The position numbers and the translations under genes are program-made. Below are positions 16,331-33,300 of a stretch of 47,562 nucleotides of DNA, in pieces (the stretch's first letter is position 1; the number at the start of each line of letters is the position of its first letter). The notes below the pieces were generated by a model. The model was not told where the DNA came from. It saw only the letters and a list, made by a program, of their open reading frames with translations, and searched no databases. Location of the stretch: positions 1 through 47,562 of IMG/VR virus record IMGVR_UViG_3300015206_000003; one strand, given 5' to 3'. The DNA comes from a virus.

Positions 16331-17049
16331 GACCCCGTAACCAACGGGATGCGAGCCCACACGAAGATGAGCGGTACGCCAGCCGGCAGCGGCAGCGTAA
16401 CCCCGGGTGGCAGGATGCAAGTGTAAAAGTAGGGTACGGCGGTCACCGGATCAGGCCCAGCCGCCCATGTGCTCGCGCCATAAGCATTGCCAGTCACCGG
16501 ATCGACGCAGTTACCAGGAAATGCCGCGGGTGGATGCACGCGAAACGCGATGATCGCCTTGTCGCTCGAACATTGCAGCGTCATCGTGCCGGTCGCGACG
16601 GCGAGCTGCGGGACGCAGAGAGTCCCGATACCGGGCTCGATATCGAGCGTGGTGGCCGTCCCGAGTACAACGCATCCGGCCGCTGTAGCGCATCCAGTCT
16701 CCACAGTAATGCCGACGCTTGGCGGCCCGGCCGGACCCGCCGAACCCGTCGCGCCTGGCGGTCCCCCGACGCTCGCCGGCAGCGTCACGATCGCGATCTT
16801 GTCGCCATTGTGGAGGACGCCGGACGCGAAGCGCACGCTGACGGCGGTCGGGGTTGTCGTGAGAACGTAGGCGGGTGGCGCCTGAAACGTGCCGTTGACG
16901 AAGATCATCAGCGACGATCCGGCCGCGGCCGTCAGCGACGGGAACGCCGCCGCGTTGGTTACGGTGTAGACGCGGGCGGCAGGCTGCTGCGCCACACAAA
17001 CGGCCGCGGCGAACAGACTACAAACGAGCGCCTTGACGAATTTACCCAT
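16327..17049 (-). CDS. Exported collagen-like protein
   Basis: 240 residues. A Sec signal peptide (VKALVCSLFAAAVCVAQQ) is followed by a beta domain opening with RVYTVTNAAAFPSL. A short collagen-like segment GPPGATGSAGPAGPP near residues 95-112 leads to a Cys-containing C-terminal beta domain. The start is 7 nt after a GTCGAATA late box and has no Shine-Dalgarno sequence. The collagen-like repeat suggests trimerisation, as in phage fibres. A signal peptide is unusual for a fibre, so secretion to the host surface is also possible. It overlaps the next gene start by four bases. Confidence 0.7.
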   Translation of the reverse strand: MGKFVKALVCSLFAAAVCVAQQPAARVYTVTNAAAFPSLTAAAGSSLMIFVNGTFQAPPAYVLTTTPTAVSVRFASGVLHNGDKIAIVTLPASVGGPPGATGSAGPAGPPSVGITVETGCATAAGCVVLGTATTLDIEPGIGTLCVPQLAVATGTMTLQCSSDKAIIAFRVHPPAAFPGNCVDPVTGNAYGASTWAAGPDPVTAVPYFYTCILPPGVTLPLPAGVPLIFVWARIPLVTGS

Positions 17050-17056
17050 GCATGGT

Positions 17057-17064
17057 TATTCGAC
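17057..17064 (-). promoter_or_regulatory. GTCGAATA late box, 7 nt before start of 16327-17049 gene
   Basis: Minus-strand GTCGAATA, spacer ACCATGC, then ATG. It lies between the stop of the Acb2-like gene and the exported collagen-like gene. Confidence 0.65.
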
Positions 17065-17317: not shown

Positions 17318-17387
17318 GATTCACCATATCGTCCCACGAAACGACCTCGTCCGAGTCACCCACGTCGAAGTCGTCGCCCTCGTACAT
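17232..17387 (-). CDS. Possible small acidic protein (51 aa) overlapping the Acb2-like gene
   Basis: ATG 17387 is coupled (TGATG) to the portal stop and the first 20 residues are acidic and plausible (YEGDDFDVGDSDEVVSWDD). After that the frame overlaps the start of the Acb2-like gene by about 85 bp and becomes Arg/Ser-rich, like non-coding frame. Either it is a real short gene with an overlapping tail or a translational leader. Low confidence. Confidence 0.3.
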   Translation of the reverse strand: MYEGDDFDVGDSDEVVSWDDMVNHGLYPRHRSNAGSVRSDRRRVRVPLLDG

Positions 17388-19666
17388 CACGACGCTCCAT
17401 GCAGGTTCTCGGGATGGCCTGAGTACAGATTCGGCCCGGTTGCGGCCGGGTTGCCGGGCGGCGCCACGCCCTGGCGCGGTCCGGTGCCGAACAAGCCGTG
17501 CGCGAACGCGAGCGGATCGCCGCCCGACGCCGCGGCCGACTGCACCAGCTTCTCGATGACGGCCTGTTGCAGCTTCTTTTGCTGCAACTGCGCCATCTGC
17601 TGCATGTAGTGCGCTTCGAGCGCCTTCATGGCGTCCGGATCGCGGTTCGGATCGACCTGCGCGCGCTGATAGTCGGCGTAGTGCCGGATCATGTGGACCT
17701 GATCGTTGTCCATCGGGTTCACGTGAACCTCTTCGCCTTCGAGCATCATCGTCCACTCTTCCCGCGGGTCGATCGGGATATCGGGCGCCGGCGGCTTTGG
17801 AACCATATCCTCAAAGTTGGGATCGCCCAACGCCGCGTGCGCGTCGCTCGTGACCTGCCAGAGCGCCGTCGGGTTCTGAACAATGAGCGGGTTCTGTAAG
17901 TCGAGCTGATAGCGCGCCAGCGCCTGTTCCTTCTTCGTTTCTTTCGACCAAATCGAATTCGCGAACTGGAGCCGGAAGTCGTAACGCCCATTGCGATCCT
18001 CCAGTTCGAGCGCCGAGGCGCCGTTGTTCGTCGGGAAAAGCCCGTCGGCGTCCTCTTCGGTGACGCGGAAGAACGTCTGCTCGGGCGAGAACATGTATTC
18101 GAGTGCCCAGAAGTGCTGGAGCACGATCGCCATGTCCTCGCGCAGCACCTTCGTATCGAGCGAGATCCGGACGTTGCCCTCTTCAAGCAGGTTCACCGTC
18201 TGCGACGCCGTGCGCGGCGCGTTCGGGCGGTCCGACTGGCGCCCCATCTGGAGATCGCTCATGCCGGTTAGCTTCTCGCCGTACGCGAGGATCGTCTGTT
18301 CCTTCCATGTGACGGATTCGAGGCCCACGCCGATTTTGAACTGAATGAGATCGGTAGCCGGGTTATCCAGCGGGATGCCAAGCCCGGGCTGGATCCGGAT
18401 CGTATCGGGCGTGACGCCGGACGCCGGACGGTAGCCGAACGGTGGCGAGATCGCGAGCTGCGCGCCCTCGGTCCCGAGATTGTGATTCACACGGAGCTCG
18501 TCTTCGAGGTCGATGAGCATCTCGCCCATGCCAGGAGACCAGTACGTGCCGTCCTTGCACATCGACGCTTCGACGAACGGGCGCCGGTCCTTCATCGTGG
18601 GGTATAGCGTTTCGAGGTCCTGGACGCCGACAACCATGTTCAGTTCCGGCAGGTAGCGAATCAGGTAATCGCGCTGTTTCATTTCGCGGCGATCGAAGTC
18701 CCACTCGCCGGCGTTGGCGTTGGCTCGCTGCCCCTTCTTGACCGGACGCCAGCGCCCGTACCATTCGAGGATCATGATCCACTCGCCCGACGATTGCGGA
18801 CGGTCGTAGAGGACGCCTTCCGCTTCGTCCTTCTCCCGCTTGATCTCTTCGCCTTCCGATTCGCGCTGTTGCCCGCGCTGCGCGAACTGCACGATCTGGA
18901 GCCAGTTTTCCTTAATGCCGCGGTAACGGCCCTCCTGCTCGCCCTTCAGCAGATCATCGGGTCTGACGCGCACGCGCCGGATAACAAAGGAGAATTCCTG
19001 GAGCGTCTTCACTTCCTCGGCCGGCACGATGATGTCATCCGGCCAGCACGGTTCGAACGCCGGCCCTTCGTAATCGACGACGGTCTCGCCGCCGACTTCG
19101 TACGTGTCGCGCTTCCACGGCGAGTACGCGATCGACTTCCCAAAGATGAGCTTGCGGAGAACGAACTCGCAAAACGGGTTCAGCAGCTTCATGCTGTTGA
19201 ACACGCGCCACGTCATGTAAACCGAGATCTTCTTGTCTTTCTTGTAATCGGACGGTCCGACGGGCACGGCCTCGATCTCGGCGTCGTCACCGAAAAGCGC
19301 GTCCATTTCCTTTGCCCACTTCGTCCAGATGTTCCAGCGAATGAACGGCACGGGCACGTTAGACGCGGCTTCTTCGCCCTGCGCCGGAACGTCGGTGACC
19401 GCGCGCCAGCGGCGGTAGTACTCGCGCCAGCGACCGATGCGACGGTTGTGATCGGACAGCGCGGCGCGATAGTCCTGCTGGACCCGGTTACCGATCTTCT
19501 GGAGTTCCGAGTCTGACCATTTAAGCTGATACTCGACCTGTTGCTTCGGCGGCGCCGGCGGCGGTGGGGCTTGCTGCTGTGGTGGCGCTTGTTGCTGCGG
19601 TGGTGCGCTCACAGGCGCGTTCTGTTGTGGTGGAGGCTGTTGCCCGGGCGGCGGCTGTGGAGTCAC
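17387..19666 (-). CDS. Portal protein
   Basis: 759 residues, large and charged, starting at GTG 19666 after a late box. A Pro/Gln-rich N-terminus (about 45 residues) is followed by a helical region with YQLKWSDSELQKIGNRVQQD and YRAALSDHNRRIGRWREYYR. The central WNIWTKWAKEMDALFGDDAE and wing-like segments precede a long helical clip and crown with a Gln-rich C-terminus (HYMQQMAQLQQKKLQQA). Size, order (first gene of the unit after TerL) and the C-terminal Gln helix fit portals of short-tailed phages. It forms the dodecameric channel through which TerL packages DNA. No exact family is confirmed. Confidence 0.8.
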   Translation of the reverse strand: MTPQPPPGQQPPPQQNAPVSAPPQQQAPPQQQAPPPPAPPKQQVEYQLKWSDSELQKIGNRVQQDYRAALSDHNRRIGRWREYYRRWRAVTDVPAQGEEAASNVPVPFIRWNIWTKWAKEMDALFGDDAEIEAVPVGPSDYKKDKKISVYMTWRVFNSMKLLNPFCEFVLRKLIFGKSIAYSPWKRDTYEVGGETVVDYEGPAFEPCWPDDIIVPAEEVKTLQEFSFVIRRVRVRPDDLLKGEQEGRYRGIKENWLQIVQFAQRGQQRESEGEEIKREKDEAEGVLYDRPQSSGEWIMILEWYGRWRPVKKGQRANANAGEWDFDRREMKQRDYLIRYLPELNMVVGVQDLETLYPTMKDRRPFVEASMCKDGTYWSPGMGEMLIDLEDELRVNHNLGTEGAQLAISPPFGYRPASGVTPDTIRIQPGLGIPLDNPATDLIQFKIGVGLESVTWKEQTILAYGEKLTGMSDLQMGRQSDRPNAPRTASQTVNLLEEGNVRISLDTKVLREDMAIVLQHFWALEYMFSPEQTFFRVTEEDADGLFPTNNGASALELEDRNGRYDFRLQFANSIWSKETKKEQALARYQLDLQNPLIVQNPTALWQVTSDAHAALGDPNFEDMVPKPPAPDIPIDPREEWTMMLEGEEVHVNPMDNDQVHMIRHYADYQRAQVDPNRDPDAMKALEAHYMQQMAQLQQKKLQQAVIEKLVQSAAASGGDPLAFAHGLFGTGPRQGVAPPGNPAATGPNLYSGHPENLHGAS

Positions 19667-19673: not shown

Positions 19674-19681
19674 TATTCGAC
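19674..19681 (-). promoter_or_regulatory. GTCGAATA late box, 7 nt before portal start
   Basis: Minus-strand GTCGAATA, spacer GCCTCCT, then GTG. It is downstream of a leftward terminator hairpin (19761-19791) and no gene lies between, so this short region must hold the portal promoter if the hairpin works. This is the best positional support for a promoter role. Confidence 0.75.
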
Positions 19682-20457: not shown

Positions 20458-20556
20458 TCATGGCTTCCCGATCGTTCCGCGCCACCACGCCGCCACGTAT
20501 CGAAACGGCAGCTTGACGATGGCCCACCAGAGCGGGTCTTGCTTCGCCGGCGTCAT
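20458..20556 (-). CDS. Small Trp/Arg-rich protein (32 aa)
   Basis: ATG 20556 overlaps the upstream stop (ATGA). The residues DPLWWAIVKLPFRYVAAWWR form an aromatic amphipathic segment that could sit at a membrane. Coupling to 20553-20969 supports translation; the function is unknown. Confidence 0.45.
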   Translation of the reverse strand: MTPAKQDPLWWAIVKLPFRYVAAWWRGTIGKP

Positions 20557-20969
20557 TTGTCCTTCGGGATCGCCGTCGGAGCGTACGAACGCGAGCCGGT
20601 CCGCGTGCTGGTACACAGCTCCTCTATCTCATGCTTGAGGAGTACCCCTTCGAGCGCCTTCTTCGTCACGTTTACGATTGCAAGGAAGACTGCCGCGCCG
20701 AGCCGTTTGCGGACAGCGGGAACGTCCGGCTTCGACTCCATCGAGCATGGTGAGATCCGGAGTTCAAAGCGTTCACCCTTGGCGTTAAATTCCGCTTCCG
20801 GATCTTCATTCTCCACCAGCGCCTTCAACCGCTCGCGGCATTTCTGATAACGCCGTTCGGTGGGTGCGAACTCGTCGCGGAGTTTGGTGAGATCGCCCCA
20901 CTCATCGATAAGATCGGCGGGAACGATCTGCGTCAGGACGGGAACGGCAGCGGATTTTGTTGCAGTCAT
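20553..20969 (-). CDS. Hypothetical protein (138 aa), possibly recombination-associated
   Basis: Helical N-terminal half with charged stretch (EWGDLTKLRDEFAPTERRYQ), then FELRISPCSMESKPDVPAVR and VNVTKKALEGVLLKHEIEEL. This layout recalls small host-nuclease or recombination-associated phage proteins, but no signature is decisive. The ATG is 8 nt downstream of a late GTCGAATA box. A basic plus-strand ORF lies back to back with it. Confidence 0.6.
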   Translation of the reverse strand: MTATKSAAVPVLTQIVPADLIDEWGDLTKLRDEFAPTERRYQKCRERLKALVENEDPEAEFNAKGERFELRISPCSMESKPDVPAVRKRLGAAVFLAIVNVTKKALEGVLLKHEIEELCTSTRTGSRSYAPTAIPKDK

Positions 20970-20977: not shown

Positions 20978-20985
20978 TATTCGAC
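20978..20985 (-). promoter_or_regulatory. GTCGAATA late box, 8 nt before start of 20553-20969 gene
   Basis: Minus-strand GTCGAATA, spacer TTTCTTGT, then ATG. This is the only copy with an 8-nt spacer and the only one with a plausible -35-like TTGGCA at a 17-nt distance from TCGAAT. Confidence 0.6.
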
Positions 20986-21542: not shown

Positions 21543-21740
21543 CTACGCCCCGACGGCTTTCGACGCCGCCTTCGATCCCCCACCCAATTGAGGCTTTTCC
21601 GGATTCCGTTCCAGTTCGGCCGCCAGTTCGGCCGGCGTCATGCCGTCGCGATGCGCCTGCAGAGCGATCATAAGCCAAAGGTTCGTAGTCGGATATCGCA
21701 AACGATACAGCGCCTGCCGGATCGTCTCGTCCGGCGTCAT
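21543..21740 (-). CDS. Hypothetical protein (65 aa)
   Basis: Helical and soluble, with a conserved-looking core DETIRQALYRLRYPTTN and MTPAELAAELERNPEKPQ. The start overlaps the stop of 21737-21976 (ATGA), so it is translated with it. No family is recognised. Confidence 0.6.
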   Translation of the reverse strand: MTPDETIRQALYRLRYPTTNLWLMIALQAHRDGMTPAELAAELERNPEKPQLGGGSKAASKAVGA

Positions 21741-21976
21741 CGCCGTTTCGCCGCGTCGTTGAGCGCCGAGCGCAGGCCGCCGGGCGCCACGCGGTTCGCC
21801 CTCGCGTCGATCTTCTTCTTAGTCGAGCTGCTGATGTTGCCAACACGTTCGGCGCGTGACGCCCCGCTCTTTGCCGCCCGGGCGTGGCTGGCATCGTTTA
21901 CGGGGAACGTACGATTCGGGCCGGCGAACGCTGAAGCGGGGAGCGCGTTACGCGCTGCTGCTGTGAGTCTTGCCAT
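21737..21976 (-). CDS. DUF6582-like small virion-associated protein
   Basis: 79 residues from ATG 21976, supported by the late box 7 nt upstream and by the opening LTAAARNALPASAFAGPNRT, followed by NDASHARAAKSGASRA and a Lys-rich helix (SSTKKKIDARANR). This resembles the DUF6582 pattern often found in phages near protease or head genes. The longer upstream frame is not used. The function is unknown. Confidence 0.65.
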   Translation of the reverse strand: MARLTAAARNALPASAFAGPNRTFPVNDASHARAAKSGASRAERVGNISSSTKKKIDARANRVAPGGLRSALNDAAKRR

Positions 21977-22239
21977 GCGAGAGTATTCGACCGAGACCAT
22001 TCTCGAAAATATCGCGGGCAAGGTCCTCTTGCGCCCGTCTGGCCTCGCTGGCCAAGTGCCGCGCCGAGCTCCATCGCGTAACGGAATTCTACCGAGTAAT
22101 GGCGGAACGTGTAGGCCACGGGCGGCGGCGGAATGCTGATCGTCTTCGCCCCGCGCACCCACAACAGACGTTCCGGATCGAGCGTCGCGCCCGCCGCGAC
22201 CGCCGCGAGAAGCCCGAGAAAGCCGCGTCGTGACGTCAT
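21898..22239 (-). CDS. Tat-signal-like protein, probably frameshifted near its C-terminus
   Basis: The N-terminus SRRGFLGLLAAVAAG matches a twin-arginine-type signal (SRRGFL plus hydrophobic core). The in-frame protein is normal to about residue 60 (FRYAMELGAALG), then becomes Arg/Ser-rich and runs to 21898 over the next gene. Skipping one base in GGCGCGGCACTTGGCC would continue as LASEARRAQEDLARDIFENG and end near 21948. That reads as a coherent charged helix. So there is either a sequencing indel or a +1 frameshift. The protein would lie at or beyond the membrane. No catalytic motif is visible. Confidence 0.6.
   Translation of the reverse strand: MTSRRGFLGLLAAVAAGATLDPERLLWVRGAKTISIPPPPVAYTFRHYSVEFRYAMELGAALGQRGQTGARGPCPRYFREWSRSNTLAWQDSQQQRVTRSPLQRSPARIVRSP
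21984..21991 (-). promoter_or_regulatory. GTCGAATA late box, 7 nt before start of 21737-21976 gene
   Basis: Minus-strand GTCGAATA, spacer CTCTCGC, then ATG. It lies inside the 3-prime part of the upstream frame. Confidence 0.6.
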
Positions 22240-22479: not shown

Positions 22480-24237
22480 TCATCGTAGCCTCACGTTCGT
22501 CCCGCGGCGGTCGTCGTTCGCCCGCGGCGGCTGTCCGTATCGTCGCATTTCGGGCGCCTTCGTTCCGGACGGTAGCACCGGAACCGGCCGCGGCATGCGC
22601 AGAATGACGACGCACGCGAGCGCCAGCGCGATCACCGTATCGTCGTGGCAACCCGATTGGTGCTCTGCCTTGCCGGTTTTCTTGATGACGAACGTGAGCA
22701 GCTCCTGTTGCGTGATCGGATCGTGGATCGCGAGCGAATCCTGACGGATCAGTTCATCGAGCATTGAGATGAGCAGCGGCCGCGAAACGCCGCCCGTTTC
22801 CCATCCGAGTTTGTCCGAGCGCGTCTGCGGGTCCTGGTCCGCCGCGACCGATCGGTGATAGAGCAGCGAGCGCGGATAGTCGGCATTCATTACCGCTTCG
22901 AGCATCGAGACGCCGCCGCCGCCCGGGTTGATCTCGCCACAGAGCTGCGCCATGTTGTACCAGCGGCAGACCCGCGCCATGTAGCGGCCGGTCTCGCCCG
23001 GCATCATGCGGGCGCGCAGCACGGCCACCTGTTCGCCCGTATCGCGATCGAGCATCTGGCCCACGCTGTAATCCGGATCCGACTGCCCGTCGCCCTCGGT
23101 GACGTCGACGCCTTGGGCGCAGTCGGCGCCGCAGGCGTACAGTCTCCCCTTCTCCGGACGTTTCCAGACTCGTAACGCGCCGTGTTGGCCCGGGTGGAAC
23201 ACGAGGCGCTTCTCTTCGTCCGTCTCGTCGATCCGCAGCTCACCCACCATCGGATCGCGCTGGATCGGCATGCGCTGGATGTGCGGAACGCTGAAACGAT
23301 TGCGTGACGACGCCGTAAACGCTTCTTCAGGCGTCGCCGGGTGCTCGCGTTTGAACCGCGTTTCGTCGCGTGCGCAGTCGTTGATGATCGTCCATCGGCG
23401 CCAGGCAAGCTGTTCGAGCGAGAGATTGAAGCGGGCTTTCAGCTCCCACTCCTCTTTCGATAGAACGTCCTGGAATTTGTCGGGCGCGACCGTGAGACGC
23501 ATCCGGTTGTCGGGATGCTCCCACCAGCCCATGAACAGGCCGAGCCAGTCGGATTCGCTCGCGGGATCCATCGCGTCCTGCCACATCTTGTGAAACGTGT
23601 CGCCGATCGTTTTCGCCGTCCCCTCGATCACGGCGCAGGTTTCGGGCAGTTTCGGGACTGCGGACATTACCGCTGTCAGCGTGTCGAGAGGACGGTCGTA
23701 GTAGGGGAATTCCGAGAAATGGACGTTTGTAAGACGGAACGAGCGGCCGAAGTTCAATGAGCCCGCCGTCTTGACCTGTATCCATGAGCTTTCCGGATCG
23801 CCCGCGTATTCGTAGTTGATCCGGTCGGTCAGGGGTACGGACGGCGGCAGCGCGATCTTGCCGGCGAACGGCTTGTAACGCTCATGAAACCGTTTGTAGA
23901 TCCGGAAGATGTTGTCCGTCGACGTCGCATCGTGCGCGATCACGGCCGTGTGGACGCCCGCCGTGAACGCCGTCGACTGAAAAAACTGCGCCGCGGCGCC
24001 CGTCGTCGCCTGAATCCGCCTGCTCTTCAGGTATATGAGTCTGACGGGAACGCCCTTCGCACGTTGCTTCTTGATCGCGGCCTGCAGGCGGATCTGCCCC
24101 GGGCCGAGGACCATCGGGACGATTTCCTTCGCTTCGGTCTCGACGACGAGCGACGAACGGCAGAAACTCTCATGATTCCTGAACTCGCGGTAGACGAGGT
24201 CGAGATCGGCAGCGCTCATCGTTTCGACGTTACTCAC
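22480..24237 (-). CDS. terL: Terminase large subunit
   Basis: 585 residues. The ATPase half has a degenerate Walker A-type loop, YLKSRRIQATTGAAAQF near residue 75, and a Walker B-like strand LTNVHFSEFPYY near 170. The nuclease half (RNaseH-like fold) has the acidic ligands in GADCAQGVDVTEG near 370 and HDDTVIALALA near 530. This order is characteristic of phage TerL, which packages DNA into the capsid and cuts it. The start is GTG 24237; ATG at 24219 (MSAADLDLVYREF) is an alternative. It lies behind the sigma-factor gene in the same unit. Confidence 0.95.
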   Translation of the reverse strand: MSNVETMSAADLDLVYREFRNHESFCRSSLVVETEAKEIVPMVLGPGQIRLQAAIKKQRAKGVPVRLIYLKSRRIQATTGAAAQFFQSTAFTAGVHTAVIAHDATSTDNIFRIYKRFHERYKPFAGKIALPPSVPLTDRINYEYAGDPESSWIQVKTAGSLNFGRSFRLTNVHFSEFPYYDRPLDTLTAVMSAVPKLPETCAVIEGTAKTIGDTFHKMWQDAMDPASESDWLGLFMGWWEHPDNRMRLTVAPDKFQDVLSKEEWELKARFNLSLEQLAWRRWTIINDCARDETRFKREHPATPEEAFTASSRNRFSVPHIQRMPIQRDPMVGELRIDETDEEKRLVFHPGQHGALRVWKRPEKGRLYACGADCAQGVDVTEGDGQSDPDYSVGQMLDRDTGEQVAVLRARMMPGETGRYMARVCRWYNMAQLCGEINPGGGGVSMLEAVMNADYPRSLLYHRSVAADQDPQTRSDKLGWETGGVSRPLLISMLDELIRQDSLAIHDPITQQELLTFVIKKTGKAEHQSGCHDDTVIALALACVVILRMPRPVPVLPSGTKAPEMRRYGQPPRANDDRRGTNVRLR

Positions 24238-24420: not shown

Positions 24421-24638
24421 TCGCCCCTCGTGATGAAGTAGATCGGCGACTGGCAGGCGATCGCGTCGTGGGCGAGCTTCGTCATGGCTTCGAGTTGCCG
24501 ATCCCGCGCCCCGTCGTATTTGTCGAGCAGCTTCTCGAATTCGGCGAGCGAACACTCGCGCGACGCCTGGTAGAACGTCCGGACGAACGCCTGCCGTACC
24601 CCGTCGGCGAGGATCGTACGTGACGCCTTGTCTTTCAT
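24417..24638 (-). CDS. Hypothetical protein (73 aa)
   Basis: Soluble and helical (GVRQAFVRTFYQASRECSLA, FEKLLDKYDGARDRQLEAM). ATG overlaps the sigma stop as ATGA, so it is coupled to the sigma gene. It could be a partner of the sigma factor (for example an anti-sigma or modulator), which is only a guess from position. Confidence 0.6.
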   Translation of the reverse strand: MKDKASRTILADGVRQAFVRTFYQASRECSLAEFEKLLDKYDGARDRQLEAMTKLAHDAIACQSPIYFITRGE

Positions 24639-25255
24639 TCGCCTCTCACGCTGATTCCCACCATCGTACGCGCTTCCGCCAATTTAGCCCGCGTCCACGT
24701 CACGCTGCGTCCGACCTGCCGGGCCGTGACGGCGAGCGGCTGGCCGGCGAGCTGGCCACGCAGAACGCTCCGTTCGAGCGTCGGCAGCGCACGTATAGCG
24801 TTCTGCAAGACCCGGTGGATCTGCTCGCGTTCGGCCTGATCGTACGCGCTGGCGGTCCGATCGGTGTCGAGCGCGGGCGGCAGCCAGCCATCGTTAGCCT
24901 GTGCAATGGCTTGCAGCGATACGTTGCGCTCCTCGCGGTATGCACGCCGTTTCTGCGAATCGATGATGGCGCCGCGGACGCGGAAGTACGCATACGCTTC
25001 GAAGCCCGCTTGCGAGGCGCGCGACGGGCGATACGCATTCGCGGCCTTCACGAGCCCGACGTTTCCCGCCTGCGCGAGATCGCGAATGTCGATCGTGGGC
25101 GAGAACATCCAGCGGACCTCGCGCGCCACTCTGAGCACCATCGGGAGCAGCTCGACGATGGCGCGTTCGCGGTTCCAGCGTTTCCACGCCCCGTAGGCGC
25201 CCGCTTCCGATAGGGTTTTCCGTGTAACTGCCTGAGCCGACGAGCGCTCATGCAC
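24635..25255 (-). CDS. Phage-encoded sigma-70 family factor (FliA/WhiG-like)
   Basis: 206 residues from GTG 25255. Region 2 is clear (about residues 45-105): DIRDLAQAGNVGLVKAANAY, then FEAYAYFRVRGAIIDSQKR, with the conserved DLxQxGxxGL and YAxFRxRGAIxD residues for core binding and -10 recognition. Region 4 is near 150-200: ALPTLERSVLRGQLAGQPL and a helix-turn-helix VTARQVGRSVTWTRAKLAEA. Region 1.1 is absent and the linker is short, as in FliA/WhiG-type factors. It would redirect host RNA polymerase to phage late promoters. The start is supported by the stop of the preceding small gene just upstream. Confidence 0.85.
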   Translation of the reverse strand: MHERSSAQAVTRKTLSEAGAYGAWKRWNRERAIVELLPMVLRVAREVRWMFSPTIDIRDLAQAGNVGLVKAANAYRPSRASQAGFEAYAYFRVRGAIIDSQKRRAYREERNVSLQAIAQANDGWLPPALDTDRTASAYDQAEREQIHRVLQNAIRALPTLERSVLRGQLAGQPLAVTARQVGRSVTWTRAKLAEARTMVGISVRGE

Positions 25256-25274
25256 GATGTAGAAGTCCCAAAGG

Positions 25275-25421
25275 TTACTTGTGAGTGACAGGTTTTGCCG
25301 CCTCACGAGCGACCTTTTTCGCCGCCTCGCGGGCAACGGCGGCGGCATGGCGCTTCGCGACGCCTGCCAGCCGAACCCGCTCGCGAACTTGAAGGACATA
25401 CGAATCCCACAGTTTACTCAT
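25275..25421 (-). CDS. Small basic Ala/Lys-rich protein (48 aa)
   Basis: ATG 25421 overlaps the end of the HGG gene. After SKLWDSYVLQVRERVRLAG it becomes a basic Ala-rich helix (KRHAAAVAREAAKKVAREAA), resembling small DNA-associated helices. It sits directly before the sigma gene. The function is unknown. Confidence 0.5.
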   Translation of the reverse strand: MSKLWDSYVLQVRERVRLAGVAKRHAAAVAREAAKKVAREAAKPVTHK

Positions 25422-25800
25422 CAGCGACGTTGGTTCCTTCCGTTGTTTTTACCGCTCTGCGGTGGATCTGTATAAACTCTTCCCACAGCACTGTGCCGAG
25501 CGATGCGTCGGCCGAACGCGACGGATCGAGCGGCGCCACCGCAACCAGACCTGCGCGATTGAGCACTTCACGAGCTGCGGATATCTCCTGCGCGGACGGT
25601 TCCCACTTCTTACTGGTACGCACGCGAACGGAACGGGCGAGCACGCCGAGGGCGGGATCGATGAGGAGGAGGAGACGACGGCGGGCAGCGGCGATGACCT
25701 GAGGTGCAGATCCGCCGTGGACGCGGCAGACGCGCGCGCCGGTGATGGCCTGGCCTTTGCAGGCCACGCCGTTCGAGCGTTTGGCGGTACACACGCTCAT
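25414..25800 (-). CDS. HGG-motif protein, possible terminase small subunit
   Basis: 128 residues. The N-terminus CTAKRSNGVACKGQAITGAR with CRVHGGSAPQV is a Cys/His-rich motif (C-x10-C-x9-C-x2-H) common in proteins encoded upstream of phage TerL. The C-terminal half is helical (SAQEISAAREVLNRAGL). Position four genes before TerL and the HGG motif make a small terminase or zinc-binding packaging factor plausible, but this is not proven. A GTCGATAA box and a leader hairpin precede it. Confidence 0.65.
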   Translation of the reverse strand: MSVCTAKRSNGVACKGQAITGARVCRVHGGSAPQVIAAARRRLLLLIDPALGVLARSVRVRTSKKWEPSAQEISAAREVLNRAGLVAVAPLDPSRSADASLGTVLWEEFIQIHRRAVKTTEGTNVADE

Positions 25801-25807
25801 AGGTCGC

Positions 25808-25828
25808 GGCGCTCATGGGTCGAGCGCC
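25808..25828 (-). repeat. Inverted repeat in the leader of the packaging operon
   Basis: GGCGCTC and GAGCGCC separated by 7 nt, lying within the 40 nt between the promoter-like box and ATG 25800. It could form a hairpin that affects translation. An ATG inside the loop opens another short frame. Confidence 0.4.
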
Positions 25829-26858: not shown

Positions 26859-26864
26859 ACTATA
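26859..26864 (-). promoter_or_regulatory. Leftward -10 hexamer TATAGT
   Basis: On the minus strand TATAGT is followed by TATTTTC and ATG 26851, a 7-nt gap. The -35 region falls near 26882-26887 inside the operator cluster and is weak (CAATAC). Operator 1 lies within the spacer. Confidence 0.6.
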
Positions 26865-26867
26865 CCA

Positions 26868-26884
26868 TACGCAGCAATTGCGTA
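26868..26884. promoter_or_regulatory. Operator 1, TACGCA-GCAAT-TGCGTA
   Basis: 17-bp palindrome with 6-bp arms and a 5-bp centre. It lies in the spacer of the leftward promoter and directly abuts the rightward -35 (26885). Confidence 0.75.
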
Positions 26885-26914
26885 TTGACATCATTCGCAA
26901 CCGCTGCGTATACT
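26885..26914 (+). promoter_or_regulatory. Rightward early promoter
   Basis: TTGACA (26885-26890), an 18-nt spacer and TATACT (26909-26914), close to the sigma-70 consensus. It drives the early arm from 26959. Its spacer and -10 are covered by operator 2, so a bound repressor would block it. Confidence 0.8.
26894..26910. promoter_or_regulatory. Operator 2, TTCGCA-ACCGC-TGCGTA
   Basis: Same 17-bp architecture with one arm change (TTCGCA for TACGCA). Centre is 26 bp from operator 1. It overlaps the rightward -10. Confidence 0.7.
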
Positions 26915-26926
26915 TCAGGTACACGG

Positions 26927-26943
26927 TACGCACCGGTTGCGTA
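26927..26943. promoter_or_regulatory. Operator 3, TACGCA-CCGGT-TGCGTA
   Basis: Perfect arms around CCGGT. Centre is 33 bp from operator 2, downstream of the expected rightward start site and upstream of the AAAGGAG ribosome-binding site. Confidence 0.75.
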
Positions 26944-26958
26944 TAAAAGGAGCCCACC

Positions 26959-27183
26959 ATGCAGGACAACGAATACGAATACGCCGAATACGAAGCGCAG
27001 AACGAACGCGAAGACGCCGCCCGTCAACGCCGCGAGCGCGAAGACGAAACGAACCCGATGGTAGTCGAACGCCGCATGATCGCGCGGGTGAATGTGGCGA
27101 TCAGCGAGATCTTCGCGGACGCCGCCAGCCGGATCCGGACGACGGAAGAGTCGGACATCGAAATGGAACGGAGGACGCGCTAA
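26959..27183 (+). CDS. First early gene, acidic/charged protein (74 aa)
   Basis: Has a normal ribosome-binding site (AAAAGGAG about 7 nt before ATG), unlike many late genes. Acidic and Tyr-rich start (DNEYEYAEYEAQNEREDAA), then a helical Arg/Glu-rich region (IARVNVAISEIFADAASRIR). First position behind the main early promoter suggests an early host-takeover or regulator role; nothing specific can be assigned. Confidence 0.7.
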   Translation: MQDNEYEYAEYEAQNEREDAARQRREREDETNPMVVERRMIARVNVAISEIFADAASRIRTTEESDIEMERRTR

Positions 27184-27753
27184 ATGGCAACCAACGGATT
27201 CTATCCGCAGAACGGCAGCGCGGTCATGCCGCCCACTGGCAAGTTCAAACCGACGGTTGGACTGCCGCAGATCGTAGCGCTCGCCGCCGTAACGGGCGAG
27301 ATGGTGTCGTCGCAGTTTGGCGAGAGCGAAGTAAAGCTGATGCTGACCAACGGACAGCCCTGGTACGTCGCGCAGGCGATGGCGGACGCGATCCGCACGT
27401 CGGGCATTCAGCCGAGGCAGCAACTCGAAGTCACCAAAACGGGTAAAGGACCGATGGACTGGAAGATCGTGCCGTTACAGGCTCATTTGGGGGGAGCCCC
27501 TGCGGCCGCGCCTCCGCAGACGGTAGTTGCAGGGACTCCCGCGGCTGCGCAACCGCTCGCAACATCGCAACAGACACAGCATAGCGCCCCCAAGTCGCAG
27601 CTCGCGGCTTGCTTCGAACAGGCGTGCGACGCCATCAAGGGCGCGCAGGCCTACGCGAACAGCATCGGCCTCGGAATCACGTTCACGTCCGAAGACGTGC
27701 GCTCGACCGCGATCAGCGCGTGCATCGGTTGCCAGAAGGGAGGCTCACGATGA
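27184..27753 (+). CDS. Early DNA-metabolism-type hypothetical protein (189 aa)
   Basis: The N-terminal domain (residues about 10-100) reads KPTVGLPQIVALAAVTGEMV, VKLMLTNGQPWYVAQAMADA and QQLEVTKTGKGPMDWKIVPL, a small beta/alpha unit. A Pro/Ala/Gln linker follows, then a helical C-terminal domain (LAACFEQACDAIKGAQAYAN, GITFTSEDVRSTAISACIG). This two-part layout occurs in early phage proteins next to Gp157-like genes. GGAGG lies about 11 nt before the ATG. A nucleic-acid-related function is possible; no family is named. Confidence 0.65.
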   Translation: MATNGFYPQNGSAVMPPTGKFKPTVGLPQIVALAAVTGEMVSSQFGESEVKLMLTNGQPWYVAQAMADAIRTSGIQPRQQLEVTKTGKGPMDWKIVPLQAHLGGAPAAAPPQTVVAGTPAAAQPLATSQQTQHSAPKSQLAACFEQACDAIKGAQAYANSIGLGITFTSEDVRSTAISACIGCQKGGSR

Positions 27754-28388
27754 CGCCTCCATCACCAGTAGCATCGCTACTCGAAAGCGCTGCCTCGATC
27801 ATCGACTGGTCCGCCTGCGACGTCCCGCCCGGGACGTTCGGGCTGGCCGTCGTTCCGAAGGCGGCGGCGCCACGCGTTTCGTTGCGGGCGCACATCGAAG
27901 GCGTCGAAGGTATCGCCGATACGATCGAAGGCCTCGACGACGAAACGCTTTCGGCCGAAGAACGCGACGAACTGAGCGCCATGCTCATCGCCGCGATCGC
28001 CGGCACGAAACGCAAGGTGGACAACACGTCGAATGTTCTTGCGATGTACGAAGCACTCGAAGCGGGCGCAAAAGCTGAAAAGGAACGTCTCGCCAAACGC
28101 GAGGCGTTCTACGCGCGCCAGATCGAGCGCCTGACCGATTACGTCATCGCCACCATGACGACGTCGAATCTGCCGAAGCTCGAAGGCGAGACGTCGACCT
28201 TCGCGCTCCGGAAGAATCCGCCGTCGGTCGTAATCGAAGCGGGCGCCACGTTCTCGCACGAATTCACGGCGTATCCGGACGCGCCGCCGCCGCGGCCGGA
28301 CAAAGATGCGATTAAGCGCGCACTGAAGGCAGGGCGCGCGATCGAGGGCGCGAGCCTGCAGGCAACGATGCGGCTGGTGCGCTCGTGA
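27750..28388 (+). CDS. Gp157-like phage protein
   Basis: 212 residues; ATG overlaps the previous stop. Central coiled coil (AAIAGTKRKVDNTSNVLAMY, EAGAKAEKERLAKREAFYAR) followed by LTDYVIATMTTSNLPKLEGE, TFALRKNPPSVVI, PDKDAIKRALKAGRAIEGA. The R-K-x-P-P-S-V and D-K-x-A-I-K-x-A-L-K-A-G motifs are characteristic of the Siphovirus Gp157 family, implicated in host resistance or replication-associated roles with unclear mechanism. The N-terminal 60 residues differ from the usual family length. Confidence 0.75.
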   Translation: MTPPSPVASLLESAASIIDWSACDVPPGTFGLAVVPKAAAPRVSLRAHIEGVEGIADTIEGLDDETLSAEERDELSAMLIAAIAGTKRKVDNTSNVLAMYEALEAGAKAEKERLAKREAFYARQIERLTDYVIATMTTSNLPKLEGETSTFALRKNPPSVVIEAGATFSHEFTAYPDAPPPRPDKDAIKRALKAGRAIEGASLQATMRLVRS

Positions 28389-28573
28389 CGTGGCGCGAGG
28401 CAATCGAGGCGCGCGACTTCGAGCCCGTTCCGCCACGTCGGCGCGACGGGCTCTGCGATAAGGTTTACGGTATGCTCGGCACGCGCGTCACGAACGGTCA
28501 CGTTTACGGCTTTCTCCTCGGAATCGTCATCGGAACGGCGTGCGCGTTGCTTGCGTGGAGTCTGCCGCACTAA
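28385..28573 (+). CDS. Small membrane protein (62 aa)
   Basis: GTG start overlapping the Gp157 stop (GTGA). A soluble Arg-rich N-terminus is followed by a membrane helix near residues 42-60 (VYGFLLGIVIGTACALLAW). It ends the first early operon, directly followed by tandem repeats and a terminator. The function is unknown. Confidence 0.65.
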   Translation: MTWREAIEARDFEPVPPRRRDGLCDKVYGMLGTRVTNGHVYGFLLGIVIGTACALLAWSLPH

Positions 28574-28592
28574 TCGAAACGAATCGAAACGA
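28573..28592. repeat. Tandem 10-bp repeat (ATCGAAACGA x2)
   Basis: Two exact direct copies of ATCGAAACGA starting at the stop of the small membrane gene. They could be arm-type integrase or Xis sites near the attachment region, or only a chance duplication. Confidence 0.5.
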
Positions 28593-28598
28593 AGCAAA

Positions 28599-28641
28599 GC
28601 CCGCGGAACGCCGATGTCGAAACGGCGCCCGCGGGCTTTTT
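28599..28641 (+). terminator. Strong hairpin terminator of the early operon
   Basis: Outer stem GCCCGCGG/CCGCGGGC with an inner stem CGCCG/CGGCG, followed by five T residues. It separates the rightward early operon from the leftward integrase and may also act for the minus strand (weaker T-run). Confidence 0.75.
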
Positions 28642-28700
28642 GCTTTTCGGTCGCGCTGCGGGTCCAGCCGTTGCGCCACCTACAAAACTATTGAACCAAA

Positions 28701-29690
28701 TCAGAGGGCGCCGGCGAGAGGATTTCTGCCGGCGAAGAGACGAGTGCCGCGCACGTACATCTGCATCACCTTCGCGCTTTCATGCCCCGACAACTTCATA
28801 ATCTCCTGATCGCTCCTGCCCAATTCGGCCGACGCAGTCACGGCGCCGGCCCGCAGAGAGTGCGCGCCGAACTGTGCGGTATCGAGTCCCGCCCGCGCAA
28901 CCGCCCGCTTGACCACTTCATTGACGGCATCGCCAGCTATTGCCCTGTGCGTCAGCCGGTCGCCTGCCCTGACGGCACAGAAAAGCGGTCCGGCCCAATC
29001 GCCACGCTTCTTGATCCACGCCTTCAGCACCCGAACCGGATCGGTCGCCGCCCGCTTCCCGGGCCATACTGCAATGATGCGTCCGCGCCCGTTCTGGTCC
29101 GTTTTCGATTTTCTGTTGACCACTACGAGCCCCTGCGCATTGAACGTCACGTCGGCGAGTTGCAGCCGTACCAGTTCAGACCGCCGCAGCGACGTGGCGA
29201 AGCCGAGCACAAGCACGGCTCGGTCCCGCATACCAAGATTCGTCTTCGCATCGCAGCCCTGCGCGACGCGAAGAAAGTCGTCTGTTGCCAAAGGGGCTTT
29301 GCCGCGTGGCTGTTCACCGCATTCGCGACGCACCGCGCAAATCACCTGACGGGCATCGGCGAGAACCGGCACCGGCCGGCCTTCCCGCCTGTGTCGATCG
29401 ACGATCGCCGCCAAGTGACGCGCCGCGGTCGAGCAGCGCCGTTCCGCCGCCGAAAGCAGCCAGGTCACGTACAGGCTCGCGGTTTCGGCGTTGCACGGCA
29501 TCGGCACGCGGCCGGCATCAGCGCACCAGCGCTGAAACACAGCCCAATCCGATGCATACCCGCGCACCGTCAGATGCGCCCGCACTGCGTTTCTCAAATC
29601 TTCGCGGCGCCTTCTCAGGGCAGCCATATCGACACCTCCATACTCGAACAGCCGGAGCTGTCCATCCCTTCCGTCGTCATCTTTAGCCAT
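28701..29690 (-). CDS. int: Tyrosine integrase
   Basis: 329 residues. The N-terminal SAM-like part (AVFQRWCADAGRVPMPCNAE) is followed by the catalytic domain with the expected order: Arg in ATSLRRSELVRL near 167, Lys in NRKSKTDQNGRGR near 193, the H-x-x-R box AHSLRAGAVTA near 277, GH in KLSGHESAKVM near 301 and the nucleophile Tyr in MQMYVRG near 311. It catalyses site-specific recombination of phage and host DNA. The gene points leftward between two rightward operons. An attachment site is expected nearby but is not identified. Confidence 0.92.
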   Translation of the reverse strand: MAKDDDGRDGQLRLFEYGGVDMAALRRRREDLRNAVRAHLTVRGYASDWAVFQRWCADAGRVPMPCNAETASLYVTWLLSAAERRCSTAARHLAAIVDRHRREGRPVPVLADARQVICAVRRECGEQPRGKAPLATDDFLRVAQGCDAKTNLGMRDRAVLVLGFATSLRRSELVRLQLADVTFNAQGLVVVNRKSKTDQNGRGRIIAVWPGKRAATDPVRVLKAWIKKRGDWAGPLFCAVRAGDRLTHRAIAGDAVNEVVKRAVARAGLDTAQFGAHSLRAGAVTASAELGRSDQEIMKLSGHESAKVMQMYVRGTRLFAGRNPLAGAL

Positions 29691-29760
29691 CTGGACCCGC
29701 CTAACACAGGCTGTTCAAAAGGTATAACAGTGACAACTCAATCCGCAAGTACCAAAATAT

Positions 29761-29791
29761 TTGACGGGGAAAAACGGAAAAGGACTAGAAT
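29761..29791 (+). promoter_or_regulatory. Rightward promoter of the replication operon
   Basis: TTGACG (29761-29766) and TAGAAT (29786-29791) with a 19-nt spacer, slightly long. An ATG lies exactly 7 nt after the -10 (29799), the leaderless pattern seen elsewhere here. The region between the integrase start (29690) and here has no further gene. Confidence 0.55.
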
Positions 29792-29798
29792 GCAGGCA

Positions 29799-30036
29799 AT
29801 GCGGAAATCCGATTTTGGGCGTTATAATTTGTCATTGTACGGGTTACCCCGCCGCCGACTCACTGACCCCCGTGGACCTCCCAGGGAACTTCCGGCATTG
29901 CGCCGCCAGTTTCTTGGCAGGAGCAAACGACGCATGCCGCACGCGCACACTGGAAGGGCCAGCGAATCAAATCGCTGCCGTGCACCTATTTTTACGCACC
30001 TTCCGCGTTCCATGCAACAGGAAGTGGGAAAAAAAT
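29799..30036 (+). other. 238-bp leader/uncertain region before the replication gene
   Basis: No convincing gene. A frame from ATG 29799 runs 96 codons but is Arg/Pro-rich and overlaps the start of the replication gene, so it looks non-coding. The replication frame itself is open upstream and contains CRQCGNPIL and CHC, but without a good start. The region may be an untranslated leader or an N-terminal extension. Confidence 0.4.
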
Positions 30037-31113
30037 ATGGCGCAAATGGCGCCCCCCGGGTATCAGTCGAATTACTCGGCGATCCTTGAACTCATCCGCT
30101 ACGGCTATGGAATCTGGACGCCGTCGCAGATGGCAGCCCTGTTATTCCACGCTGAAAGAAGCACCGCGCACGGCCGCGAAGCCGACCAGCACAGCGCTAA
30201 CCAGGCGACGGAGGGAATCTATTCCGTACGCTCGCTGTCGTGGGTCCGCGGGCCATCCGGCCTCTCGAAATCCACCTGGTGCAGGTCCAACAACGAACTC
30301 CTGATCGATCCGGCAAAACCCGAAACCTTAAAAACCGGAGTGGTGCGAAAAATCCTGCGCACGAACCGCTACGGGAAGGACGACCCGACCGAATTTGAGC
30401 TGGACTGGCGAGCCATCAAACGGCGCATCGAAGCATGGAAAGAGCAAAAACGGGACCAGTTATATTCCGAGGGTGAGTGTCCCAATTTGGGACACTCAAA
30501 AGGCGAAGAGACGGTAAAGGGTGTGTCCGAATCTGAGACACTGAGTGTCCCAAATTGGGACACTCAGTGTCTCAATCCAGGACACTCACCACAACATGTG
30601 GAGGATCCGGCCCCAGGGCCCAGGGGTGTGTGTCCCAATTTGGGACACACAGTCAAGTCAAAGTCACTGGTCACAAGAGTCGGTCAGTCACAGCGCGCGC
30701 GCGAAAATCCCAGCGCGACAGAGATTGCTTGTGCCATTGAGGAAGCCAGCGGCGAGCGGCCGACCGACCGACTGACAAACTCAATCCTTCAAACCGCCGA
30801 ACGACTTAGACTCCCGCTCCCGGTAATCGTGCGCTGGATTCACGACAAATGCCACGAAGTCAGAGCCCGCGGATACCCGCTTCGCGCCGGCCTGCTGGAG
30901 GGCGCGGCCAAAACCGAACTCATTAGCTGGTGTAAATCGAATACCCGTTTTGTCGACAACGTCCGGATGCAGATCGAACAGGCAGAATATCGGAAAGAAC
31001 AGGAGAAAAATCAGCAGATGCCCACACAGGAACCCGTCGCCGATCCGGAATTCGCCACCGAGCTGCTGCGCAGCGTCGCCGCGAAAAAAGCTGAGAAAAA
31101 GGCGCAAGGCTGA
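30037..31113 (+). CDS. Replication initiator (O-like) with internal origin
   Basis: 358 residues from ATG 30037 (GTGGGA and an A-run upstream). The N-terminal about 120 residues form a winged-helix-type module (YSAILELIRYGYGIWTPSQM, YSVRSLSWVRGPSGLSKSTW, VRKILRTNRYGKDDPTEFEL). A linker follows whose DNA is made of palindromic iterons (30475-30647), giving repeated peptides such as CPNLGHS. The C-terminal helical part (IACAIEEASGERPTDRLTNS) may recruit a helicase. This layout equals the lambda O type, with the origin inside the gene. No polymerase or helicase gene is present in the window. Confidence 0.75.
   Translation: MAQMAPPGYQSNYSAILELIRYGYGIWTPSQMAALLFHAERSTAHGREADQHSANQATEGIYSVRSLSWVRGPSGLSKSTWCRSNNELLIDPAKPETLKTGVVRKILRTNRYGKDDPTEFELDWRAIKRRIEAWKEQKRDQLYSEGECPNLGHSKGEETVKGVSESETLSVPNWDTQCLNPGHSPQHVEDPAPGPRGVCPNLGHTVKSKSLVTRVGQSQRARENPSATEIACAIEEASGERPTDRLTNSILQTAERLRLPLPVIVRWIHDKCHEVRARGYPLRAGLLEGAAKTELISWCKSNTRFVDNVRMQIEQAEYRKEQEKNQQMPTQEPVADPEFATELLRSVAAKKAEKKAQG
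30475..30647. repeat. Origin iterons: five copies of a 17-bp palindrome
   Basis: Consensus TGTCCCAATTTGGGACA. Copies at 30478-30494 and 30631-30647 (exact), 30546-30562 (exact with central A), 30524-30540 and 30568-30584 (degenerate). The first and third extend to 23-bp palindromes with GAG/CTC flanks. Copies two to four are spaced exactly 22 bp apart, about two helical turns. Located inside the replication gene, they are the likely binding sites of its product. Confidence 0.8.
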
Positions 31114-31115
31114 AT

Positions 31116-31382
31116 ATGCCGTGGCCTACGGAATGGAACCGCGAGAACATCCGCCGCGACCTCGAAGAGGCCACCGGCGGCGGCGTTTCGGTCGACGATC
31201 CCCTGCCCGATACGCTGCTCGCGGTAGCGCAGTCGCTCGACCTGAAGCCGGCCGAGCTGCGCATCTGGATCGGCGACGGGCGCCCGAAGCTCCCCGAGGA
31301 GTGGAACGCCGCGAATCTGACCGCGTGGGCCCGCAGGTACAACCTCGGAAAATTCGCACAGGAGCAAACAACCGAACCATGA
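31116..31382 (+). CDS. Hypothetical early protein (88 aa)
   Basis: Starts two bases after the replication gene stop. Soluble, Trp-rich (PWPTEWNRENIRRDLEEATG, ELRIWIGDGRPKLPEEWNAA). The helical N-terminus could bind a partner. It overlaps the next start (ATGA). The function is unknown. Confidence 0.65.
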   Translation: MPWPTEWNRENIRRDLEEATGGGVSVDDPLPDTLLAVAQSLDLKPAELRIWIGDGRPKLPEEWNAANLTAWARRYNLGKFAQEQTTEP

Positions 31383-31654
31383 ACGCCTGGACAGAACCCG
31401 ATCTCGACACGAGCCGCGTCCGTGAGCTGGACCAGCTCCTGCGCGCCAACCCCGAAAACGTCGGCGGACGCCGCCCGAAAAGCGCAGCAGGCGAGATCCA
31501 GCGGCAGAACTATCACCGCCGCCGTATAGCTTACCTGCGGCGTGGAGGACGTCACGCTGAAGCCGACGCCGAGGCCGACGTCTACGCCGCGCGCGAAGCG
31601 TACGACGAACGGGAGCGGATACTGGCGAGCCAGATCGGGAGGCAACAGCCATGA
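31379..31654 (+). CDS. Hypothetical early protein (91 aa)
   Basis: ATGA overlap with the previous gene. Basic and helical, with RVRELDQLLRANPENVGG, the cluster YHRRRIAYLRRGGRHAEAD and AREAYDERERILASQ. It may bind nucleic acid. No family is recognised. Confidence 0.6.
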   Translation: MNAWTEPDLDTSRVRELDQLLRANPENVGGRRPKSAAGEIQRQNYHRRRIAYLRRGGRHAEADAEADVYAAREAYDERERILASQIGRQQP

Positions 31655-31860
31655 CGGTCACGGTCACCATGACGGTCGAGAACGAAGACGGGCACGCCCT
31701 CACCGACGCAGAGATCTCCGAGGCGTACACCAGGGCCGTCGAGATACTCACCTGCGCCGAAACGAAGGCCGAGATTGCCGGGAAGATCGCCGAATCGGGA
31801 CGCCTGCCGGCGCCCAAACCGCCCCGCCGACCGTGCGCGAGAAAGCGAGTTTTGCGATGA
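31651..31860 (+). CDS. Hypothetical early protein (69 aa)
   Basis: ATGA overlap. Begins with TVTVTMTVENEDGHALTD (beta strand then turn) and a helical stretch AEISEAYTRAVEILTCAETK, then a basic tail. The function is unknown. Confidence 0.6.
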   Translation: MTVTVTMTVENEDGHALTDAEISEAYTRAVEILTCAETKAEIAGKIAESGRLPAPKPPRRPCARKRVLR

Positions 31861-32024
31861 AAACCCGAAAAACGCGTTTACGGGCGCTTTACGCGATCGG
31901 CGGCCGTTCTGCGCCGTCGGTAGTCCCAGGAACCCGCCTCGCGAGCGTATGCGCGGCGTTTGGCGTGTCGGCGGGTACGTTTCGCGGCTGGTGGTATCCC
32001 CAAATCACAGGAGAAATTTTATGA
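31857..32024 (+). CDS. Small basic early protein (55 aa)
   Basis: ATGA overlap. Arg/Lys-rich start (KTRKTRLRALYAIGG) and a hydrophobic aromatic end (AFGVSAGTFRGWWYP) in a pattern like a small helix-turn-helix (LASVCAAFGVSAGTFRGW). It could bind DNA. The function is unknown. Confidence 0.55.
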   Translation: MKTRKTRLRALYAIGGRSAPSVVPGTRLASVCAAFGVSAGTFRGWWYPQITGEIL

Positions 32025-32239
32025 CGCCCGACCCACCCCGCATAATTCTCGATCCGATGACGGTCGCGCGCCTCGTCGCGAAACTCACCCCGGCGGAAGA
32101 CGCCGAGCTGATCAAAATCATCGAAGGCGCAGGCGACGACGAACTCGAAAAGTGCACGCGGACGTGCGACTGGCTGCTGAAGCGTTTCCCGCAAGTCGCC
32201 GTCTCGATACGGCGTTCGGCGGCGGCGAGAACGAACTGA
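32021..32239 (+). CDS. Hypothetical early protein (72 aa)
   Basis: ATGA overlap. Helical, with LDPMTVARLVAKLTPAEDAE, LIKIIEGAGDDELEKC and LLKRFPQVAVSIRRS. It ends at the start of the helix-turn-helix gene (TGATG). The function is unknown. Confidence 0.6.
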   Translation: MTPDPPRIILDPMTVARLVAKLTPAEDAELIKIIEGAGDDELEKCTRTCDWLLKRFPQVAVSIRRSAAARTN

Positions 32240-32544
32240 TGACGCCCGCTCAACTGCTTGCCCGGGACGTGGGCGCCACGCGCAAACGCCTGCACCTGAC
32301 GATCGCCGTGATGGCGTGGCAAATCGGCATTTCGGAATCTGCTTTGCGCCGCATCGAAAACGGGACGTCGAAGAACACGCACGGCGATACGGCGTCCGCT
32401 ATCGTTGCGTGGGCTGCTAACCGCGGCTACCGCCATTTCGGCGGCGTCCGCATCGACTGGCCCGTATCGCGCGCAACGTCGTTTTTCAATACGCGGCGGC
32501 GCCGCGCCGATGACGAGGACGAAAAACAGGGAGGTTTGTTCTGA
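32239..32544 (+). CDS. XRE-type helix-turn-helix regulator (101 aa)
   Basis: The N-terminal 65 residues match an XRE/Cro domain: LLARDVGATRKRLHLTIAVM, AWQIGISESALRRIENGTSK with a turn G-I-S and recognition helix, and a fourth helix. The C-terminal half is basic and acidic mixed. It is a plausible regulator of early or lysogenic transcription, possibly the factor binding the operators at 26.87-26.94 kb, but this is not shown. Confidence 0.7.
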   Translation: MTPAQLLARDVGATRKRLHLTIAVMAWQIGISESALRRIENGTSKNTHGDTASAIVAWAANRGYRHFGGVRIDWPVSRATSFFNTRRRRADDEDEKQGGLF

Positions 32545-32888
32545 TGCAGATCAACGACGGCAACTTGAGCGAACCCGTGATAGAAGCGGGCTTCAGAAAA
32601 ATGGCAGAGCATCTGGCTAGCGGTGGCCGGATCGTCATCGGGACGAGTGAGGCGCTGGACGAAGGATTCATCGTTGGCAAAGACGGCGAGCGTCATCTGG
32701 CGATCAAGCGCCGCGCGACACGGCAGGAATTTGTCGATACGCAGATCGGCAGCGCCGAAGACAGACGCCGGAGCGAGGCGATGCACGCGCCGTTCTATTA
32801 CGAGCTGGAGCTTTGGGACCGAGTGCTCGACGACGGAAACGGAATGCGGCTCGGTATCAGAATTCGTCAGGGAAAGGCGGGCGCGTGA
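32544..32888 (+). CDS. Hypothetical early protein (114 aa)
   Basis: Shares one base with the previous stop. Alpha/beta: VIEAGFRKMAEHLASGGR, IVIGTSEALDEGFIVGKDGE, RHLAIKRRATRQEFVD, FYYELELWDRVLDDGNGMRL. The strand pattern could form a small beta-grasp-like fold. The function is unknown. Confidence 0.65.
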   Translation: MQINDGNLSEPVIEAGFRKMAEHLASGGRIVIGTSEALDEGFIVGKDGERHLAIKRRATRQEFVDTQIGSAEDRRRSEAMHAPFYYELELWDRVLDDGNGMRLGIRIRQGKAGA

Positions 32889-33226: not shown

Positions 33227-33263
33227 CCCGCGCAGAACCCGCGCTGCGTATCTCAAATTTCCC

Positions 33264-33293
33264 TTGCATGCAGTTGCGCGGGTGGTCTATCAT
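33264..33293 (+). promoter_or_regulatory. Internal promoter of the helix-turn-helix gene at 33301
   Basis: TTGCAT (33264-33269), an 18-nt spacer and TATCAT (33288-33293). ATG 33301 follows 7 nt later, again a leaderless-type arrangement. Confidence 0.5.
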
Positions 33294-33300
33294 TGCGGCT

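Follow-up and report, generated by a model that had tools for sequence, protein, structure and literature searches.

T4 gp55 is a phage sigma factor that serves late promoters consisting of a -10 element only (TATAAATA); it lacks sigma4 and works together with gp33 and gp45. The phage sigma gp36 of phiEco32 acts on middle and late genes through a single-element promoter (tAATGTAtA) that has no -35, with transcription starting 6-8 bp downstream of the element, and its lack of region 4 homology explains the absent -35; leaderless starts are not mentioned for it (PMC8948821). The late sigma gp47 of phage 7-11 possesses region 4 and its promoters are bipartite (GTAAtg-16-aCTA) (PMC8948821). In Mycobacterium (PMC4633059) and in other bacteria (PMC3160421), leaderless genes carry a -10-like element shortly before an ATG or GTG start. 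Where such an element lies about 10-12 bp from the start codon, it is accepted as a sign of a leaderless gene (PMC3160421). These signals resemble the sigma-70 -10 (TANNNT).

Single-element late promoters read by phage sigmas are thus known, and so, separately, are leaderless mRNAs. Here we describe a virus record, the window (the whole stretch of DNA analysed, 47,562 nucleotides or 47.6 kb, 62% G+C), in which both may meet. With phiEco32 gp36 and T4 gp55 this locus shares a phage sigma and, as judged from sequence, -10-only promoters before late genes; with gp47 it shares a sigma that has region 4; with the leaderless genes it shares a -10-like element shortly before ATG and GTG starts. It differs from phiEco32 in the sequence of the box and in a sigma4 that is present and conserved, from phage 7-11 in showing no upstream element, and from the bacterial leaderless signals in that the box is phage-specific and accompanies a phage sigma. 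A lineage-wide leaderless late regulon served by a sigma that keeps sigma4, yet without a -35, appears to be a new combination, and the literature searched yielded no case of a phage sigma serving leaderless late genes. Among known isolates, annotated phage records gave remote sigma matches only (Paenibacillus larvae phages and unannotated fecal phages). The comparisons below suggest a late switch that would make leaderless mRNAs.

The sigma gene and its product

The sequence-only reading had proposed a FliA-like sigma factor at 24635-25255, in the TerL operon. The gene does encode a sigma factor and is part of the cluster running towards TerL, in the order TerS-like gene, sigma gene, small genes, TerL (Table 1), but the start proposed for it made it slightly too short. 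Codon-usage scoring picks GTG 25306, which is preceded by AAAGG, and a start at 25255 would remove an LWD motif common to relatives; because of this choice and the retained motif, GTG 25306 is the likely start. One relative (G012) had seemed to carry a sigma gene disrupted by two TGA codons; this was rejected, as both lie upstream of the gene start and the gene is intact.

The 223-residue protein comprises sigma2 (about residues 34-123), a linker and sigma4 (about residues 149-223); sigma3 was sought between the two domains and is absent. The linker of ~39 residues is of low confidence and largely unstructured, compared with ~87 residues in FliA. Sigma2 was recognised by Pfam Sigma70_r2 (PF04542; 1.1e-10, 41.6 against a threshold of 24), and the score of 66.8 bits with the NCBIfam sigma70-ECF superfamily model (TIGR02937) exceeds the general sigma-70 cut-off of 42.9. 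The structure model (pLDDT 74, pTM 0.41) is good for the two domains only; whole-chain superposition was poor and the domain arrangement is not predicted, and domain-level matches alone were used. Residues 34-123 superpose on a sigma domain 2 bound to -10 DNA (3ugo) at 1.6 A over 85 residues, and residues 149-223 on ECF sigma4 domains (3hug, 2h27), with 1.7 A over 75 residues for one of them. The presence of sigma2 and sigma4 only is the make-up of Group 4, ECF-like sigmas, while the best sequence matches of region 2 among solved structures are to FliA. Because sigma3 is missing and the curated FliA/WhiG threshold (TIGR02479) is missed widely (59.7 against 189.6 bits), the protein is not a FliA but a sigma of two domains whose sigma2 resembles that of FliA. 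The likeness to FliA proposed earlier therefore holds for sigma2 and stops there, the TAAA-type -35 of FliA/WhiG being absent as well.

The sigma4 helix-turn-helix is kept in most family members, and most of them also preserve its recognition helix (GRSLTWTRAKLAEAR in relatives) despite the lack of a -35. This helix may serve in flap binding, in contact with a co-activator or in non-specific DNA binding.

The late box and its distance to the start codon

The structural genes of the window lie on the minus strand. The 8-mer GTCGAATA occurs seven times, every copy on this late strand, where 1.2 are expected and none of 100 shuffles reached seven. Its match to the FliA -10 (GCCGATAA) at five of eight positions had been pointed out before and was verified by eye. 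The main structural point had been missed, namely a fixed, leaderless-type spacing: the gap from the end of the box to the ATG or GTG of a late-strand gene is exactly 7 nt in six of the seven copies and 8 nt in the other (probability ~1e-9 for six or more of the seven at a given offset). Including a variant copy (GTCGAATT), eight late genes carry a box; the remaining late genes must be reached by read-through or from other promoters. For the 79-aa box protein the match is phrog_16160 (3.9e-20), of unknown function; its relatives in G006, G007 and G016 have a box too, and it may serve as a late-gene marker.

Table 1. Positions of the features discussed, numbered along the window
Feature	Positions	Strand	Remarks
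Late gene, weak tail-protein match	988..1950	-	orthologues have GTCGAAT, or GGCGAAT in an Arg119 clade
Box GTCGAATA	1958..1965	-	7 nt before ATG 1950
Major head protein	4546..5466	-	
99-aa late gene with box	8859..9158	-	
Box GTCGAATA	9166..9173	-	7 nt before ATG 9158
72-aa box gene	9165..9383	-	likely orthologues with box in several relatives
Variant box GTCGAATT	9392..9399	-	8 nt before ATG 9383
54-aa box gene (MAKSTPHFN...)	12464..12628	-	box in relatives' orthologues
Box GTCGAATA	12636..12643	-	7 nt before ATG 12628
240-aa late gene with box	16327..17049	-	
Box GTCGAATA	17057..17064	-	7 nt before ATG 17049
Portal protein	17387..19666	-	phrog_1216, 9.7e-7
Box GTCGAATA	19674..19681	-	7 nt before GTG 19666 (portal gene)
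138-aa box gene	20553..20969	-	box also in relatives' orthologues
Box GTCGAATA	20978..20985	-	8 nt before ATG 20969
79-aa box gene	21737..21976	-	phrog_16160
Box GTCGAATA	21984..21991	-	7 nt before ATG 21976
TerL	22480..24237	-	downstream of sigma, same cluster
Sigma gene	24635..25306	-	upstream of TerL; likely start GTG 25306
Sigma4 part of sigma gene	~24635..24862	-	
TerS-like gene	25414..25800	-	head of sigma/TerL cluster; weak matches
GACCYATGA pair	25797..25821	-	just upstream of TerS-like gene
GTCGATAA	25838..25845	-	before sigma/TerL cluster; not consensus, uncertain
Three 25-nt repeats	26861..26944		between two gene arms
Sigma-70-type promoter	26885..26914	+	TTGACA-18-TATACT
Plus-strand block	26959..33855	+	Gp157/Gam-like protein, weak anti-repressor matches
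Internal virion protein	44771..47191	-	

Sixteen related virus contigs were gathered via sigma and TerL. The pattern GTCGAATA-N7-RTG is present in 14 of the 17 records (the window and its 16 relatives), with 0 for the reversed-pattern control, and in an unbiased scan of 8-mers before gene starts GTCGAATA at 7 nt ranked first (29 of its 54 occurrences). Single-base variants showed the first seven letters to be nearly fixed, the eighth being A, then C, G or T. When sigma-bearing contigs were pooled, GTCGAAT lay at N8 in 76 sites, at N9 in 17 and at N10 in 14, other distances having 0-6 each; GTCGAAT-N8-10-RTG was also found in 12 of 23 further records. In likely orthologous genes the box is retained while the upstream DNA diverges. 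Clades that at first seemed box-less were found to carry GGCGAAT or GCCGAAT at equal distance in orthologues of the window's box genes, and the idea that they lack a box was rejected.

The absence of a conserved -35 upstream of the seven late boxes, an earlier observation, was confirmed on these seven and on 96 non-redundant box sites from relatives, where column information, 5- and 6-mers, and scans for TAAA and TTGACA at many offsets revealed no -35 (weak columns, at most 0.16 bit). The FliA/WhiG-type TAAA expected ~15 nt before GCCGATAA was not enriched at any offset in the 96 sites. On general knowledge, a short motif conserved close to gene starts might also be an operator, in which case the box would be bound by some other phage regulator, at promoters that went unrecognised. 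We find this very unlikely: the fixed distance to the inferred start and the non-palindromic form suit a -10 element, and no further promoter element is visible upstream.

Bacterial transcription usually starts with a pyrimidine at -1 and a purine at +1. In the 68 N8 sites among the 96, a pyrimidine stands at -1 in 91% and G at -2 in 66%, with the purine of the start codon at +1; G-pyrimidine precedes the start in 41 of the 68, compared with 17% of 712 control starts (p ~2.5e-15). Of the 12 N10 sites, 10 still have the G at box+7, as would be expected were the box to fix the start site. Cytosine at -1 has been reported for mycobacterial starts (PMC4633059), and the gap from box to presumed start agrees with phiEco32 gp36 promoters (PMC8948821) and with the -10-like signals taken to mark leaderless genes (PMC3160421).

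The eight box genes of the window all lack a Shine-Dalgarno-like core, which 17 of 39 other called genes possess. This would also be expected if the box acted in the mRNA as a translation signal, binding the ribosome 7 nt before the start codon by other means than a Shine-Dalgarno sequence, and the distance would suit such an element. However, the box occurs on a subset of late-strand genes only, the -1 pyrimidine/+1 purine pattern is a transcription-start signature, the G in N10 sites keeps its distance to the box and not to the start codon, and the box varies with a sigma residue (see below), making a translation signal very unlikely.

Taken together, we think it probable, on comparative grounds, that the phage sigma recognises GTCGAAT as a -10 element standing alone and that transcripts begin at the start codon, giving leaderless late mRNAs. 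According to this model, the small sigma (sigma2 and sigma4, no sigma3), made from the TerS-sigma-TerL cluster, would redirect host RNA polymerase to a stand-alone -10, GTCGAAT then usually A, before genes presumably expressed late in infection. Initiation would occur 8 nt after the last T of GTCGAAT and would coincide with the start codon's first base or lie 1-2 nt ahead of it. Given this distance of the box to the start codon, mRNAs beginning at boxes would be leaderless or nearly so, and would be translated without a Shine-Dalgarno sequence. The conserved sigma4 without any -35 counts against this explanation, as a reading based on sigma2 only does not account for it. The small number of late genes with a box, eight, also weighs against it.

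Association of the box with the sigma family

A profile search with the sigma recovered 56 viral loci. GTCGAAT is present with sigmas down to ~35% identity and absent with more remote ones, permuted controls being near zero. TerL relatives in Bryobacteraceae genomes in which the sigma is divergent or unrecognisable have at most one chance-level box each. The box is retained where sigma4 has diverged (L060, L057).

Base 2 of the box, T or G, covaries with residue 119 of sigma region 2.4, Lys or Arg. Counted by site, Lys119 goes with 96 GT and 15 GG, and Arg119 with 3 GT and 16 GG (Fisher 1.6e-9); counted by contig, the T/G ratio is 21:3 for Lys against 1:7 for Arg (p 2.6e-4). The covariation is also seen within orthologous genes. 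Among the TerL relatives in Bryobacteraceae, G182, with an Arg-type sigma, has two GGCGAAT boxes, one of them before a 755-aa ORF. Exceptions to the rule are L015 (Arg, GT), L050, L061 and L066. On the sigma tree the residue label needs ~5 changes, although weak branches allow fewer and the changes are not firmly placed; the association is partly phylogenetic. With the box tracking the sigma family and its second base covarying with residue 119, the earlier proposal of a phage-specific sigma that would fire late genes is well supported by comparison.

These distributions also bear on the possibility that the boxes are leaderless late promoters read by a host sigma of FliA/WhiG or ECF type, the phage sigma doing something else. 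Nearly all Bryobacteraceae genomes sampled encode relatives detected by the sigma model, typically near 1e-20, and the partial resemblance of the box to the FliA -10 points the same way. This possibility nevertheless seems unlikely, since a FliA-type -35 is found at no site, the box pattern is rare in hosts (~2 per ~6 Mb genome against 6 in the 47 kb of the window), and the box follows the phage sigma family and varies with it.

Serine recombinase genes in G012, G014, G027 and G028 (L039-L044, L118-L121) have GTCGAAT or GGCGAAT 8-10 nt before the start. Because the box precedes them, recombination may also be under the control of the phage sigma.

Possible autoregulation, likely host and neighbouring elements

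Autoregulation of the sigma had been suggested from GTCGATAA at 25838, before the cluster. This sequence is present, and its match to GCCGATAA at seven of eight positions and the TAAT 16 nt upstream were verified by eye. It is, however, not the consensus box and not enriched (2 found, 1.1 expected), and N7-GTG after it opens five codons only. Of ~10 relatives, only G001 and G004 have a true GTCGAATA at the corresponding position, and autoregulation as a general rule was rejected; it is possible in some members, judging from those two boxes.

Contigs binned as Bryobacteraceae (Acidobacteriota) also have the sigma adjoining and upstream of TerL, and the two genes are neighbours in further genomes of this family. 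One contig was binned as Streptosporangiaceae. Binning errors are possible. Bryobacteraceae are the likely host group. Searches of annotated phage genomes turned up no close relative of this group, whose probable hosts are poorly cultured soil bacteria. For such phages the model would supply a concrete and testable late switch and would link leaderless translation to a phage sigma; it also predicts efficient translation of leaderless mRNA in the Bryobacteraceae host. The family may be seen, too, as a natural series: a residue of the sigma and a base of the promoter appear to have changed in step.

We put forward tentatively, at somewhat less than an even chance, a broader reading for the lineage: the late programme of a whole lineage of Bryobacteraceae phages would be run by a sigma that reads only a -10, via sigma2; promoter and start codon would be fused, so that box-initiated mRNAs are leaderless; the sigma switch would also be a switch of translation mode, from Shine-Dalgarno early to leaderless late; and the code linking sigma and box would have shifted inside this lineage, T going with Lys119 and G with Arg119.

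The TerS-like product at the head of the cluster matches phrog_3678 (unknown function) at 1.7e-8 and, weakly, the terminase small subunit phrog_10899 (0.0038). Just upstream of its gene are two copies of GACCYATGA, 16 bp apart, a pair that recurs in G004, G009 and G010 at 17 bp; they may be cos/pac repeats bound by terminase. The region between the two gene arms holds a strong sigma-70-type promoter, and around it stand three 25-nt repeats whose core (ACGCA...TGCGTA) is an imperfect palindrome; these are likely repressor operators at the early promoter.
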